From a virus: a stretch of DNA of 20,022 nucleotides. The stretch lies in IMG/VR virus record IMGVR_UViG_3300042934_000100, positions 1 through 20,022 of that record, one strand, 5' to 3'. The translations under genes were made by a program, and so were the position numbers. The notes below the pieces were generated by a model. The model had not been told where the DNA came from, ran no database searches, and saw only the letters and a list, made by a program, of their open reading frames with translations. This document shows, piece after piece, positions 4,457 to 16,533 of the stretch (positions are counted from its first letter, which is position 1; every line of letters starts with the position of its first letter).

Positions 4457-4822
4457 ATGGGATTCAAGGTTACTAAGTTCGTCGCACCGGAGCCGGTCAA
4501 CCCGTACCTGGAAGACGTGGCAGCATTCGCAAAGGAAAACGCCGACAACCCTGAAGCAGCCATTGAAGTTGACGTTCCTGCCAAGGATCAGGGTAAGACT
4601 GAGCTTCAGATTCGTAAGGCCGCAAACGCTGTCGGAAAGACTGCGCGTCTGCGTAAGGTGGACACGTCACAGCGACAGGTCACCGGCCAGACCGACAAGG
4701 GTCGTGACATTGTTGAGGGAATCGTGGTTCTCACGTATACCCTGACCGAGAAGCACAAGGGCGGCAAGGGTCGCAAGCCCGCAGCTGAGACCGCTGAGGC
4801 ACCGGCCAAGCCTTCCAAGTAA
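4457..4822 (+). CDS. Small basic-tailed protein, candidate DNA-binding or p6-like
   Basis: 121 residues; family not recognised. An acidic helical N-terminal half (EDVAAFAKENADNPEAAIEV) is followed by a beta-like core (about 45-98) with ELQIRKAANAVGKTARLRKV and GIVVLTYTLTEKH, and then a tail rich in Lys, Ala and Pro (about 98-121), the kind seen in histone-like proteins. It has its own promoter, a long leader and a strong ribosome binding site, and it uses mostly C- or G-ending codons, all suggesting high expression. It sits between polymerase and virion genes. An abundant genome-organising protein doing the job of phi29 p6 is my best guess; a minor virion protein is the alternative. Confidence 0.8.
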   Translation: MGFKVTKFVAPEPVNPYLEDVAAFAKENADNPEAAIEVDVPAKDQGKTELQIRKAANAVGKTARLRKVDTSQRQVTGQTDKGRDIVEGIVVLTYTLTEKHKGGKGRKPAAETAEAPAKPSK

Positions 4823-4837
4823 TATCAATTTCAATAC

Positions 4838-4982
4838 TAATCGGGCAGTTCAACCCTTCACAATCGCGTGTTGAGGTTGTCGGATTGGTCGGAACAGTCT
4901 ATCCAGAATGCACCGGTTGGGTCCGGTCTGTGGTAGCATGGGGCTTGCAACCTACTGAGTCCGCTCACCGGATGCCCGATTA
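4838..4982 (+). ncRNA. Candidate structured RNA (possible packaging RNA)
   Basis: The segment is closed by a perfect 10-bp helix: TAATCGGGCA (4838-4847) with TGCCCGATTA (4973-4982). Inside are separate local hairpins: 4851-4862 with 4869-4879 (one bulge, one mismatch, loop ATCGCG); GGAT/ATCC 4882-4885/4901-4904; ACCGG/CCGGT 4912-4916/4923-4927; TGGTAG/CTACTG 4931-4936/4952-4957; TCCG/CGGA 4960-4963/4969-4972. This tiles nearly the whole segment in a multi-branched fold, and a strong terminator begins two bases later. It holds no ORF. phi29 packaging RNA is a similar-sized closed branched RNA needed by gp16-type ATPases, and this genome encodes such an ATPase. The alternative is a structured leader of the virion operon. 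Folding was done by eye. Confidence 0.5.
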
Positions 4983-4983
4983 A

Positions 4984-5023
4984 GAGGGGAGGTCACCTAT
5001 GTGGCCTCCCCTCGCTTCTGTTT
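4984..5023 (+). terminator. Strong intrinsic terminator before the virion block
   Basis: GAGGGGAGGTCAC (4984-4996) and GTGGCCTCCCCTC (5001-5013) form a 13-bp stem, with one G-T, and loop CTAT. GCTTCTGTTT follows. It lies directly behind the structured segment and would give that RNA a defined 3' end. Confidence 0.85.
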
Positions 5024-5039: not shown

Positions 5040-5396
5040 ATGGGCGTCGTAGACGATTATATTAGTGGGTTGGAAGGTAAAGAAAGCCTTGATCCTCTTG
5101 AAGTTGCACGCAAATTGCATGAGCTTCATACTCAGGAAGTGAGCACACGAGAAGCTAAGATCAGTCAGCTTGATACAGAGAAAGAAACTCTTGCATCACA
5201 GATTGCCGCAAAGGAATCTGAGATTGAGAAGTGGAAAGCAAAGAATTTTGATCTTGCTATGCAAATTCCTGGCGCACCGGCAGAACCGAAACCTCGCGAT
5301 GAGAATGAGAAGCCGGATGCGAGCACCATTAAAACCGCCGATCTTTTCACACCAAAAGTTCGGCAACGTAACCCACATTTCAGAACAGGAAGGTAA
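5040..5396 (+). CDS. Putative scaffolding protein (phi29 gp7-like)
   Basis: 118 residues. The central part (about 25-75) is highly charged with heptad-spaced hydrophobics (ISQLDTEKETLASQIAAKES and on), predicting a long coiled coil. The C-terminal 40 residues are Pro- and Lys-rich and end in RNPHFRTGR. Immediate upstream position relative to the major capsid gene, small size and coiled-coil content match phi29 gp7, the internal scaffold that shapes the prohead and is later released. The ATG follows AAGGAG at good spacing. The capsid gene starts 2 bases after this stop. Sequence identity to gp7 is not evident, so the call is by context. Confidence 0.75.
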   Translation: MGVVDDYISGLEGKESLDPLEVARKLHELHTQEVSTREAKISQLDTEKETLASQIAAKESEIEKWKAKNFDLAMQIPGAPAEPKPRDENEKPDASTIKTADLFTPKVRQRNPHFRTGR

Positions 5397-5398
5397 AC

Positions 5399-7069
5399 AT
5401 GCCTAACGACGACCGGCCTCTTATTGAGGATTATACCAATGTGGACTGGCTTAACGCCGTCCGCAATGATGCGGGACTTGACTACCGGGACCGTATCCCC
5501 GAGGCCACGCAGGCCAATATTCAGGAGGTGATCCAGCTTCTCTGGACGTACAAGCCGTACATGAACAAGTTTGTTGATGTGCTTGTTAACCGTATTGGTC
5601 TTGTACTTTTCAGTGAATGGTCTTGGTCTAACCCGCTTGCCCCGCTTAAGCGCGGCATGCTTCAGATGGGTGAGACTATTGAAGAGATCATGGTTGGTCT
5701 TATTGAGGCCGATGAATATGACGCTGATCGTGACGAGCTTGAAGGTGAGCTTTTCGGAGCTAAAAAGCCGGAAGTGCAGGCTTCTTATCACGTTGTCAAT
5801 CGTCGTAACCGTTACAAGCTGACCATTCGTGAACCGGAGCTTCGCAACGCATTCATTACGGCAAATGGTCTTACCACTTTTGTCTCGCAGCTTATGGGTG
5901 CGGCGCAGAAGTCGGATCAGATCGATGAATTCCTTGCAATGGCAAACCTGTTCAAGGAAATGGATCAGGCCGCAACTGGCCCTGACGGAACGCACGGTCT
6001 GTTCAACGTTCAGATTGCCGATATTGGTGATGAGGCTTCGACTCCTGAACAGTCTAAGTATGCGCTTCGTCGTCTGCGCGAATTCGGTACTACGCTTCAG
6101 TTCCCCTCGCGGGCATATAACCCGGCTGGCATGCCGCAGGCTATTAACCCGGATGATCTGATTCTGTTTACCACTCCTGAGGCAGATGCCGCTATGGATG
6201 TTGAAGCGCTGGCAGCAGCATTCAATATCGATAAGTCGGATGTGGGATACCGTAAGTTCGTGCTCCCTTCGGCACACTATGGCATTCCCGGATTCCAGGC
6301 AGCGCTCACGTCTAAGGAATTCTTCGTTGTTGCCGATCAGCGTATCGAGACAACTTCGATGATGAACCCGGCAGCACTGTTTACGAATTACTGGCTTCAC
6401 CACTGGCAGGTTATTTCTGCTTCGCGGTTCGCGCCACTCGTCATGTTCAACTCGCTTCGTCCTTCGACGCAGCTTGCACCGATCGTGTACGAAATCACCG
6501 GCATTACCGATTTCACTATTGAAGATGCGGAAGGTGTTGCGGCACCGACCAACCTGTCTCGTGGCGAAATCTACAATGTTATTGTGGAAGGTGAGACTAC
6601 TCCTGTGGGCGGCCCCGCAGCGGTTCGTCTGTCGCTGGACGGTGCTACGTCGTCGTTCACGCGCGTTACTAACAACGGTGCGCTCTACATTGGTCCCGAT
6701 GAGCTTGCCGACACGCTCACCATTATTGCTACGGCAGTAGACAGTGATGACGTGCCGCAGTACACCGAGTCCACTACTCGCACCATTGTTGGGGACGGTG
6801 TTGTTCTCTGGCCTCACCCGCACGAGATTAACGACGCCGACAACGATGGCACGGAAGAAGTGACGCCCGCCGAGCTTACGATGGATGAGGACGACAACGT
6901 GACGATTCCGTCAATTGTCGGCGTTCAGTATCGTAAGGAAGGTGTGAACGTCAATAACGGGACTGTTCATAACATCGCAGTTGAAACCGACTTCGATGCC
7001 GTGGCCCGTACCGGCTATGAAATCGCAGCCGGTGCCGACACTACGTGGACGTTTACGCCCACACCGTAA
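5399..7069 (+). CDS. Major capsid protein with C-terminal Ig-like region
   Basis: 556 residues against 448 in phi29 gp8. The N-terminal two thirds follow gp8: VDVLVNRIGLV (about 59-69), N-P-L-A-P-L-K-R-G ... G-E-T-I-E-E-I (about 79-98), then YDADRDELEGELF, and later YWLHHWQVISASRFAPLV near 331-348, matching the gp8 YYYHVWQTLSVSRFA region. This part would form the HK97-like shell. From about 360 to 465 there is an Ig-like domain comparable to the phi29 BIG2 domain. A further domain of about 80 residues (about 475-556), absent from gp8, begins with an acidic linker and ends in WTFTPTP. It has GC-richer codons than neighbouring tail genes, as expected for the most abundant protein. Confidence 0.93.
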   Translation: MPNDDRPLIEDYTNVDWLNAVRNDAGLDYRDRIPEATQANIQEVIQLLWTYKPYMNKFVDVLVNRIGLVLFSEWSWSNPLAPLKRGMLQMGETIEEIMVGLIEADEYDADRDELEGELFGAKKPEVQASYHVVNRRNRYKLTIREPELRNAFITANGLTTFVSQLMGAAQKSDQIDEFLAMANLFKEMDQAATGPDGTHGLFNVQIADIGDEASTPEQSKYALRRLREFGTTLQFPSRAYNPAGMPQAINPDDLILFTTPEADAAMDVEALAAAFNIDKSDVGYRKFVLPSAHYGIPGFQAALTSKEFFVVADQRIETTSMMNPAALFTNYWLHHWQVISASRFAPLVMFNSLRPSTQLAPIVYEITGITDFTIEDAEGVAAPTNLSRGEIYNVIVEGETTPVGGPAAVRLSLDGATSSFTRVTNNGALYIGPDELADTLTIIATAVDSDDVPQYTESTTRTIVGDGVVLWPHPHEINDADNDGTEEVTPAELTMDEDDNVTIPSIVGVQYRKEGVNVNNGTVHNIAVETDFDAVARTGYEIAAGADTTWTFTPTP

Positions 7070-13846: not shown

Positions 13847-14581
13847 ATGGGACTTCTTATTGAAAGACAAGGCGACACCCTGTGCTTGAACGTGCAGGGT
13901 ACTCGCCTTGTCTTTCATCCCACACCGGCAGGCGTATGGATTAATGCCACGGCTGGCGATTTGAAACTAGAGCCCTACGGCAATTGTCTAGTACTCAATA
14001 CGACACAGACTAAATTGCTTGCCGTTCCTCTGCCTAACGGCGATTGGATGCTCACTGGCGATTATGGCCCCGGTCCCGGTCCTGATCCGGGTGAAGGCGA
14101 CTTCTCGTGGCCTTACGAGCCTACATGGCTTCATTGGGTTACGTCAGAGTATGGTCCGCGTAATGGACGATTCCATGAGGGAATTGACTTCTCTGGCGGT
14201 CCCGCATTGTACGGCACACCGATTCCCGCAATTGGCGACGGCACAGTACACCTGTCGCAATATTTTGGTGCGTTCGGTAACTGCATCATCGTCAATCATG
14301 GCGAGTTTGACGGATTCGTATGGTACTCTCTACATGGGCACATGGTTAGCGTTTCACCATTGGGTGTAGGTGATCCGGTAACGAAAGCTCAAACCATTGG
14401 ACAAGTGAACAACACTGGTAGTAGCTTTGGCTCACACCTTCACCTTGAAATACACCGGGTGCCACCAGGCGGAAACCTGCGATGGGATAACAATAATCCG
14501 TCATACAGCAGTCCACGCACAGCAATTAACCCTAGAGATTTCTTCACTGCATACGGGGACGGGACTTGGATTATCTCATGA
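13847..14581 (+). CDS. M23 metallopeptidase, putative tail-tip lysin (gp13-like)
   Basis: 244 residues. The catalytic domain (about 95-235) carries the M23 signature: H110-EGI-D114 and H197-L-H199 as zinc-site motifs, and a Y-S-L-H163-G-H165 segment holding the usual catalytic His. It would cut peptide bridges of peptidoglycan. The first 70 residues form a separate beta-rich domain (TLCLNVQGTRLVFHPTPAGV), and a Gly/Pro/Asp linker (PGPGPDPGEG) joins the two. phi29 gp13 has an M23 domain at the tail tip and lies between appendage and ATPase genes in the same relative place, but also has a lysozyme domain, which is missing here. Entry-side wall digestion is therefore more likely than lysis, for which a second M23 gene exists at 16533. 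Confidence 0.87.
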   Translation: MGLLIERQGDTLCLNVQGTRLVFHPTPAGVWINATAGDLKLEPYGNCLVLNTTQTKLLAVPLPNGDWMLTGDYGPGPGPDPGEGDFSWPYEPTWLHWVTSEYGPRNGRFHEGIDFSGGPALYGTPIPAIGDGTVHLSQYFGAFGNCIIVNHGEFDGFVWYSLHGHMVSVSPLGVGDPVTKAQTIGQVNNTGSSFGSHLHLEIHRVPPGGNLRWDNNNPSYSSPRTAINPRDFFTAYGDGTWIIS

Positions 14582-15642
14582 GCAACGTTACGAATATTGC
14601 CACAAAGCGACCTGGCAAAATCACCAAATACTACAGCTTCGCTAAACTCGACTCCTATAATGCGCGTTATAACATGGCTGTAGGTGGTCGTGGAATTGGT
14701 AAAACATACGGGAAAAAGGTTAAAGCTGTAAGAGATGCAATTAGGCGTGGTGAGCAATTCATCTATGTACGGCGTTATCGTGAAGAATTGCAACTAGCAA
14801 AGGAAACATTCTTCAGTGACTTTCAGCATGTTTTCGAGGATTGGGATTTTCGTACACAGGGACGCACAGCGCAAATGTCCCCCGCCAGTCAACGCGACAA
14901 GAAAAAGCGTGAATGGAAAACCATCGGATTCTTTGTCGCACTATCACAGGCGCAATCGTACAAATCTGTAAACTTCGAGCTAGTCAAAACCATCATCTTC
15001 GATGAGTTTATTATCGAGAAAAGCGCAACACACTATCTGCCTAATGAAGCAATCATCTTTAACAACTTCTTCAGCACTGTAGACAGGTACAAAGATAAGA
15101 CGCGTGTCTACTTCCTAGCCAACAGTGTAGCTGTTACTAATCCGTACTTCATCTATTATAAGATCGAGCCGGGACAGGCTGATAATAACGGCTTCCTGAA
15201 GATTGATACCGACGGCTTCATGATCTGCCACTTCATTGATAGTAAAGAATTCGAGAATGAAGTATACAAAACACAATTCGGCAAGTTCATTCAAGGCACC
15301 GAGTATGCAGACTACGCTGTCGGCAATCAATTTGGTGACAACCACACAAGTCTAATTGATGAAAAGACTAGTCGTGCCCGTTACATGTTCACACTTGAAA
15401 CTGCAAGTGGCGTATTTAGTGTTTGGTATGATATGGTAGCTGACAAATACTTTTGCCAGGATAAGCGTCCAAAAGATGAAACAATTGTTACTCTCGAACC
15501 GGAAAGGATGAGCGAAAAGAAAACTCTAATGACGTTCGCAGATAAGCCATTGGCAATGTTGCGAACAGCGTTCAGGCATGATAGAGTAAGGTTTGATCGG
15601 GCTCCAACGCGCAACGCATTTTTGGAGATATTTAAACGATGA
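14578..15642 (+). CDS. DNA packaging ATPase (phi29 gp16-like)
   Basis: 354 residues. Walker A is GGRGIGKT (36-43; phi29 gp16 has GARGIGKS), followed by GEQFIYVRRYREEL (58-71), nearly identical to GEQFIYVRRYKPEL of gp16. Walker B is TIIFDEF (138-144) with catalytic E143. Later matches include S-V-A-V-T-N-P-Y-F and F-G-K-F-I-Q-G-T-E-Y. It drives genome translocation through the portal into the prohead. In phi29 it works only with a ring of packaging RNA, which makes an RNA partner in this genome likely. ATG 14578 overlaps the stop of the peptidase gene (ATGA); the frame is open to 14566 without a better start. In phi29 the ATPase follows the lysis genes; here it precedes them. Confidence 0.96.
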   Translation: MSNVTNIATKRPGKITKYYSFAKLDSYNARYNMAVGGRGIGKTYGKKVKAVRDAIRRGEQFIYVRRYREELQLAKETFFSDFQHVFEDWDFRTQGRTAQMSPASQRDKKKREWKTIGFFVALSQAQSYKSVNFELVKTIIFDEFIIEKSATHYLPNEAIIFNNFFSTVDRYKDKTRVYFLANSVAVTNPYFIYYKIEPGQADNNGFLKIDTDGFMICHFIDSKEFENEVYKTQFGKFIQGTEYADYAVGNQFGDNHTSLIDEKTSRARYMFTLETASGVFSVWYDMVADKYFCQDKRPKDETIVTLEPERMSEKKTLMTFADKPLAMLRTAFRHDRVRFDRAPTRNAFLEIFKR

Positions 15643-16224: not shown

Positions 16225-16533
16225 ATGGCAACTATTCCAATCAAACAGCCCCGTAGGATTGATCCATCATTGGTGGAGATTGGAGACGACATTAGTGTCA
16301 CGTTCAAAAAGGACCGTGGCCTCACGACTACTAATCGTGGCATTGTGGGCAAACGTATGGATAGCGGTTCTACTCGTTATCTACTCACCGAGGAAGGTGC
16401 AACTTTACTGGCATGGGAACCGTCACGAACAAAGCTGGTAGAAGTTACGCTTTATGGTCGTGAAGAAGTGCCACAGTCAACACTGTTTGACATTGCTGAA
16501 GGCATTGATTTGGTTAAACAAAGGATTGCATAA
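16225..16533 (+). CDS. Hypothetical protein in the lysis block
   Basis: 102 residues, not recognised. It is predicted mostly beta (VEIGDDISVTFKKDRGLTTT, then TRYLLTEEGATLLAWEPS), compatible with a small SH3-like barrel, followed by a short C-terminal helix. No membrane segment or signal peptide is visible. It starts 2 bases after the holin stop, and its stop overlaps the endolysin ATG by one base. Its place between holin and endolysin suggests a lysis or wall-related role, but nothing in the sequence proves it. Confidence 0.75.
   Translation: MATIPIKQPRRIDPSLVEIGDDISVTFKKDRGLTTTNRGIVGKRMDSGSTRYLLTEEGATLLAWEPSRTKLVEVTLYGREEVPQSTLFDIAEGIDLVKQRIA

Follow-up and report, generated by a model that had tools for sequence, protein, structure and literature searches.

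The stretch of DNA analysed here (the window) is a virus contig of 20,022 bp that carries a full phi29-type gene set, including, in addition to the genes listed below, those for a protein-primed DNA polymerase, major capsid protein, tail, portal and lower collar. The gp16-like ATPase that the original prediction had placed at 14578 is borne out by matches to PDB 7jqq, a 332-residue DNA packaging protein (E=6.1e-48, residues 18-354), and to the phrog_2150 terminase (9.4e-73). By this ATPase, the nearest named relatives (~50-53% identical) are the Arthrobacter phages Anjali, Mendel, Swim and Tillums, together with many Curtobacterium phages. The segment under study lies between the small gene that ends the replication operon and the scaffold gene:

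708-1196: SSB gene
1797-2606: terminal-protein candidate
4457..4822, + strand: last gene of the replication operon (small, after the polymerase), assigned by gene order; at this position Anjali, Mendel and Swim have a gene annotated with an RHH domain
4838..4982, + strand: candidate packaging RNA, the full structured segment in the window phage (closing helix plus covariance-model core)
4984..5013, + strand: intrinsic terminator hairpin that follows immediately on the RNA; a strong hairpin stands at the same place in most relatives
5040..5396, + strand: scaffold protein gene, assigned by position, the first gene past the RNA; the equivalent gene in phage Ayka is annotated as scaffolding protein
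14578..15642, + strand: gp16-type packaging ATPase (PDB 7jqq and phrog_2150 matches)

Elsewhere in the window, a long AT-rich inverted repeat lies at 86-182, near the left contig end and upstream of the SSB gene, and the inverted repeat TTGAAAGACAAGG/CTTGTCTTTCA at 13854-13924, which came up through a chance match to a microRNA model, lies near the start of an M23 peptidase-like gene at 13847.

The segment had been singled out, from the letters of the window, as a closed, multi-branched structure and a candidate packaging RNA. Its perfect 10-bp closing helix (4838-4847 with 4973-4982), the absence of any convincing ORF spanning it and the 13-bp terminator hairpin just after it (4984-5013) are all present as described, and the boundaries 4838-4982 are valid for the window phage. 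The comparison of its thermodynamic fold with shuffled sequences, proposed at the same time, gave -54.7 kcal/mol with z = -1.88, and 11 of 200 shuffles folded equally well, a marginal result when taken alone; since the fold is only mildly unusual by energy, the case could not be settled from one sequence. A scan of the window with the Rfam collection, including the phi29 pRNA family RF00044, to a limit of E=10 brought up nothing that rose above noise, and BLASTN of the gap sequence against phages gave no matches, so that sequence similarity alone is blind to the RNA family outside close relatives.

Distribution and covariation of the RNA family

A non-coding gap separates the small post-polymerase gene from the scaffold gene in the annotated genomes that share this order of genes, which range from Anjali to Rhizobium phage N3_8, and a strong terminator hairpin stands 300-600 nt upstream of the capsid start in 114 of the 136 loci examined. 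Just 5' of this terminator lies a segment of ~112 nt whose ends pair, with sequences differing between phages (GATTCAGGA/TCCTGAATC in Mendel, GGTACCTG/CAGGTATC in Prophecy and TAATCGGGCA/TGCCCGATTA in the window). A covariance model (R1), built from an alignment of 53 gap segments with the window absent from the seed, was run against both strands of 1.36 Mb; each genome gave a single match, situated in the gap, and there were two off-target matches only (E-values of 3 and 5). On the window, R1 matched 4872-4982 with 69.1 bits (E=2.3e-13), and a further covariance model, R2, matched the same interval with 81.5 bits (E=8.7e-15). Altogether, the ~112-nt element was aligned from 85 phi29-like genomes or contigs (Arthrobacter, Curtobacterium, Microbacterium and Rhizobium phages and IMG/VR records), in which a strong terminator and then the scaffold gene come after it.

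Because the 85-member alignment based on R1 is fitted to its own model, an independent test was made with a held-out-clade model, R3, for which the structure was derived automatically and the seed comprised the Anjali-type clade only. Although built from a distant clade, R3 recovered the window-type RNAs (window E=0.0044); each of its 24 matches with E-values of up to 10 was correctly placed, with zero off-target matches in 0.61 Mb. Between the window and locus L001, the RNA differs at 2 of 145 positions (1.4%), the upstream gene at 37 of 366 (10.1%) and the scaffold gene at 13 of 357 (3.6%).

Covariation was counted over 40 consensus pairs in the alignment of the 85 R1 matches. The cells of these pairs are paired in 82.6% of cases, and 37 of the 40 pairs have changed on both sides, so that the compensating changes which the original prediction had proposed to look for in relatives are indeed found. 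Cells with double changes number 824, vs. 269 +/- 19 after shuffling and 180-263 when the partners are slid by 1-3 columns. By this comparison of sequences, which puts the structure well outside chance expectation, the segment is a genuine RNA whose structure is conserved.

The consensus begins and ends in helix P1 (helix 1), with 5'-YGUG and 3'-CCGA ends and 11 pairs, nine of which show two-sided changes (89.8% paired). P2 leads to a three-way junction, whose closing G-C pair is near-invariant and stands next to a strongly covarying one (U-A 25, G-C 23, A-U 21). In P3, the first of the hairpins, the outer stem is separated by a bulge, present in the 5' strand only, from an inner stem of 3-4 bp, which carries a hexaloop U-U-G-R-N-U. 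All P3 pairs covary, including 4 of 4 in the inner stem (94.4% paired), and in the hexaloop an invariant UG is followed by A or G in every one of the 85 members. P4 is a short hairpin, smaller than P3, with the loop (U/A)GC(A). The interior, described at first as tiled by five hairpins, instead branches at a three-way junction into two conserved hairpins (P3 and P4), to which the window clade adds one insert. In the window, these parts are placed as follows:

4872..4982, + strand: family core, domain-I-like, 111 nt (R1, R2 and R3 matches)
4838..4847, + strand: 5' strand of the outer closing helix, by which helix A is lengthened in the window clade (all 10 positions pair with 4973-4982)
4973..4982, + strand: 3' strand of the outer closing helix, including the conserved CCGA
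4851..4879, + strand: hairpin inserted in helix A, holding the CGCG loop (constrained fold)
4880..4883, + strand: inner closing helix, paired with 4968-4971 (constrained fold)
4899..4936, + strand: P3 hairpin, equivalent of the phi29 CE-hairpin (consensus pairs present in the window)
4908..4912, + strand: 5'-side bulge AUGCA, equivalent of the right-hand or CE-loop (U4909-A4912 complementary to the P4 loop)
4917..4922, + strand: hexaloop UUGGGU, equivalent of the phi29 E-loop, there UUGAGU (UG invariant in 85/85)
4939..4954, + strand: P4 hairpin, equivalent of the phi29 D-hairpin or left-hand loop (consensus pairs, constrained fold)
4946..4949, + strand: P4 loop UGCA, complement of the P3 bulge (in-register pairing test)

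A helix equivalent to 4838-4847/4973-4982 is found in L001, L007, L008, L045 and L053, and in L001 the change of U4880 to C turns a U-G pair into C-G. The hairpin 4851-4879 belongs to the window's clade only, and most of the 85 members in the alignment lack it; the self-complementary CGCG loop, which had been suggested as a site of intermolecular contact, sits in this lineage-specific insert and was ruled out in that role. For the window, the unconstrained minimum free energy favours a different fold, ~4 kcal/mol below the constrained consensus, with the bulge-loop pairing not credited.

The same alignment bears on a reading at the DNA level, namely, a promoter region for the late genes that would include the extended -10 TGGTAGCAT (4931-4939), which the original prediction had entertained for part of the segment. 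The motif TGnTAnnnT recurs in the window clade, and in phi29 the late promoter A3 sits between early and late genes, where the p4 site activating A3 is also annotated. However, the bases 4931-4939 are the 3' strand of P3, which covaries with its 5' strand, and the start of P4, and a promoter at this place would transcribe straight into the terminator. As the motif is lost in the Anjali clade with the pairing kept, and as the promoter scan found none, the extended -10 was ruled out as an explanation, and we regard a DNA-level element as extremely unlikely.

Comparison with the phi29 packaging RNA and other systems

The phi29 reference structure (from a run of Rfam on phi29) has paired ends and a first hairpin made of a 9-bp outer stem, a 9-nt 5' bulge, a 4-bp inner stem and the hexaloop UUGAGU, which is followed by a 3-nt linker, a second hairpin with a 5-nt loop and then directly the 3' strand of the long helix; the diverged B103 and Chedec 11 pRNAs retain UUGAGU, as phi29 does. 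The new family is like phi29 pRNA (RF00044) and its Bacillus relatives B103, Chedec 11, GA-1, SF5 and DLc1 in the ~112-118-nt core, the paired ends and the three-way junction. It is also like phi29 pRNA in a first hairpin with a 5'-side-only bulge, 4-bp inner stem and UUGAGU-type hexaloop, in a second hairpin that adjoins the 3' strand of the closing helix and in the complementarity of bulge and loop. In phi29, a pseudoknot of the LCE and LD loops joins one molecule to another, LE touches the capsid protein, and gp16 is bound by the A-helix (PMC6765105). With LE here taken as the equivalent of the hexaloop, these roles would explain the conservation of the same parts in the new family.

The window elements of the bulge-loop pairing are U4909GCA4912 and U4946GCA4949. 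Across the family, at least three contiguous Watson-Crick pairs in register can be formed in 76 of the 85 members, vs. an average of 47 and a maximum of 58 when the loops were shuffled among members (1000 rounds). The bulge:loop type is GC:GC in most members, GU:AC in L035 and L152, and AC:GU in L134, L137 and L139, while the pair flanking this core switches between U-A (34) and A-U (22); the third and fourth pairs fail in a large minority of members. This covariation fits pairing between molecules and within one molecule alike. The compensatory GU:AC variant occurs in the RNA of Rhizobium phage RHph_N3_8 (L035, 5584-5697), a phage recorded from a Gram-negative host; a 2024 review calls its Rhizobium host questionable (PMC11476376).

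The gene context is likewise shared with phi29. The phi29 early operon runs 6, 5 (SSB), 4, 3 (TP), 2 (polymerase), 1, pRNA, and that of the window ssb, TP, polymerase, one small gene, RNA; both phages encode a gp16 ATPase. The new element is unlike phi29 pRNA in its location at an internal early/late gene boundary (4838-4982 of 20022), on the late-gene strand, with a terminator following. The original prediction had raised its distance from the genome end as a departure from phi29, a concern that loses its force since the RNA follows ssb-TP-pol along the early operon in phi29 as well, and this operon is here inverted relative to the late genes, which places the RNA inside the genome instead of at its terminus. 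The pRNAs of GA-1 and Karezi are also non-terminal, and a genome end is not required (PMC9965433). Further differences from phi29 are the mostly GC-centred and often self-complementary bulge/loop pairing (UGCA, AGCU), vs. the AACC/GGUU type of phi29, and, in the window clade, the extra hairpin in the closing helix.

RF00044 and the new models gave no significant score either way: RF00044 misses the window at the E=10 limit, and R2 reaches only 3.2 bits on phi29 pRNA (E=9.9 in 6.5 kb), though at the right place. As neither model recognises the other's members at a significant score, common ancestry is read only from the layout, the sequence of the loop, the order of the genes and the ATPase. 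With a descriptor of the phi29 topology, the top-ranked match was the known pRNA in each of the three Bacillus sequences examined and the gap RNA in the window; overall, such a first rank was reached in 64 of 89 sequences, with 17 of 89 missed and 186 other matches in 1.14 Mb. The descriptor, written after both structures had been seen, provides supporting rather than independent evidence. A competing pRNA elsewhere in the window, which the original prediction had named as evidence against itself, was not found with Rfam, R1 or R2.

Several other phages are of note at this point. In Glutamicibacter phage Voltaire (L039), positions 4768-4881 hold a candidate for a diverged member with a weak R2 match (11.2 bits, E=0.007 in 232 nt), the hexaloop UUGAUU, the bulge UGCA, a second loop CCGCAAA and UGC/GCA pairing, and this is the first descriptor match in the genome. 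Actinomyces phage Av-1 (L040, DQ123818), also phi29-like and with an actinobacterial host, has an annotated "packaging RNA" at 16295-16402 that differs in place, at the right end and opposite ORF C; it was matched neither by RF00044 nor in genome scans with R1 or R2. The early/late gap of Av-1 (4471-4611) contains a different structured stretch with a terminator. In Bifidobacterium phage BadAargau2 (L044), a promoter-like box TGCTATAATG followed by a structured stretch and a hairpin (~5660-5800) lies upstream of the capsid operon, and the stretch is possibly another RNA. In the gaps of Av-1 and BadAargau2, R2 found no match even with its filters switched off.

The shared layout also helps to weigh readings in which the element is an RNA with a function other than packaging. 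A cis-acting RNA at the early/late boundary (an attenuator, a riboswitch-like leader or a polymerase-bound antiterminator like HK022 put) would control whether transcription continues past the terminator and so reaches the capsid operon. The gap RNA, immediately ahead of a terminator and of the late genes, is placed as such regulators are, and very little space is left for a late promoter between the terminator and the scaffold gene; RNA antitermination elements such as HK022 put and Bacillus EAR are, like the gap RNA, structured RNAs close to a terminator. Nevertheless, pRNA-like loops are not expected in those elements, and a cis-acting RNA would not predict the phi29 pRNA layout, the hexaloop or the bulge-loop pairing. 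Moreover, the complementarity of the terminator 5' arm to the RNA is at chance level (6.2 vs. 6.5, n=77), which argues against a classical switch and on which grounds the antiterminator switch was rejected. A cis-acting function thus appears unlikely.

A trans-acting phage small RNA with a non-packaging role, such as host regulation or replication control, would typically be a structure with its own terminator, as observed here; set against this are a layout specific to pRNA and a strict co-occurrence with gp16, a homologue of which is encoded in 48 of 48 long loci, and we find such a role quite improbable.

A putative packaging RNA and its meaning

Overall, the covarying family in 85 genomes and contigs, the phi29 topology, the UUGRNU hexaloop and the compensatory bulge-loop pairing lend support to what began as a guess from a single contig. 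On this comparative evidence, the element is very probably a phi29-type prohead/packaging RNA (pRNA), in an actinobacterial-phage lineage with none described before.

As a packaging RNA, it would be made with or after the replication operon and would end at the terminator. Bulge-to-loop pairing between molecules would assemble a ring on the portal vertex, where the hexaloop would contact the capsid protein and the paired-end helix would recruit the gp16 ATPase, both as in phi29, and the RNA ring would link portal and ATPase during DNA packaging. It is possible, as a matter of speculation, that the terminator hairpin 4984-5013 occupies the place of phi29 pRNA domain II. The 60 nt before the RNA contain no consistent common promoter, with TGnTAnnnT present at -14/-15 in only 5 of 83 cases, so that the RNA may arise by cleavage of the early transcript or as its continuation. 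In the Anjali group (L025, L026, L028), the ribbon-helix-helix gene upstream has its stop codon within reach of the 5' CGUGA of the RNA, the two overlapping, which suggests either cleavage out of the early transcript or a start of the RNA inside this gene.

The literature searched yielded no published transcript, prohead-binding or packaging data on these phages. As far as is currently known, according to the 2024 review, only phi29 and the Bacillus phages related to it use a packaging apparatus based on pRNA (PMC11476376). The new pRNAs reported by a 2025 Infernal survey, for which phi29, GA-1 and DLc1 served as seeds, are from phi29-group phages only (PMC12670572), and no RNA is mentioned in the Ayka genome paper (PMC9502298).

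In the broader picture, pRNA is likely to be an old and widespread part of phi29-type motors rather than a speciality of Bacillus phages, represented in actinobacterial phi29-like phages by a separate, deeply diverged family. In this family, the loops that form the ring would mostly be self-complementary (UGCA, AGCU), the gene would lie inside the genome, a terminator hairpin would stand in place of domain II, and the helix that binds the ATPase would carry inserted hairpins particular to single clades. The more than 80 diverse members, which keep the bulge-loop pairing and the putative capsid-contacting hexaloop, bear on the question of whether pRNA is ancestral to phi29-type motors. The family offers natural compensatory variants of the presumed ring interface, and the culturable phages of Arthrobacter, Curtobacterium and Microbacterium provide motors for probing ring size and the role of the RNA.
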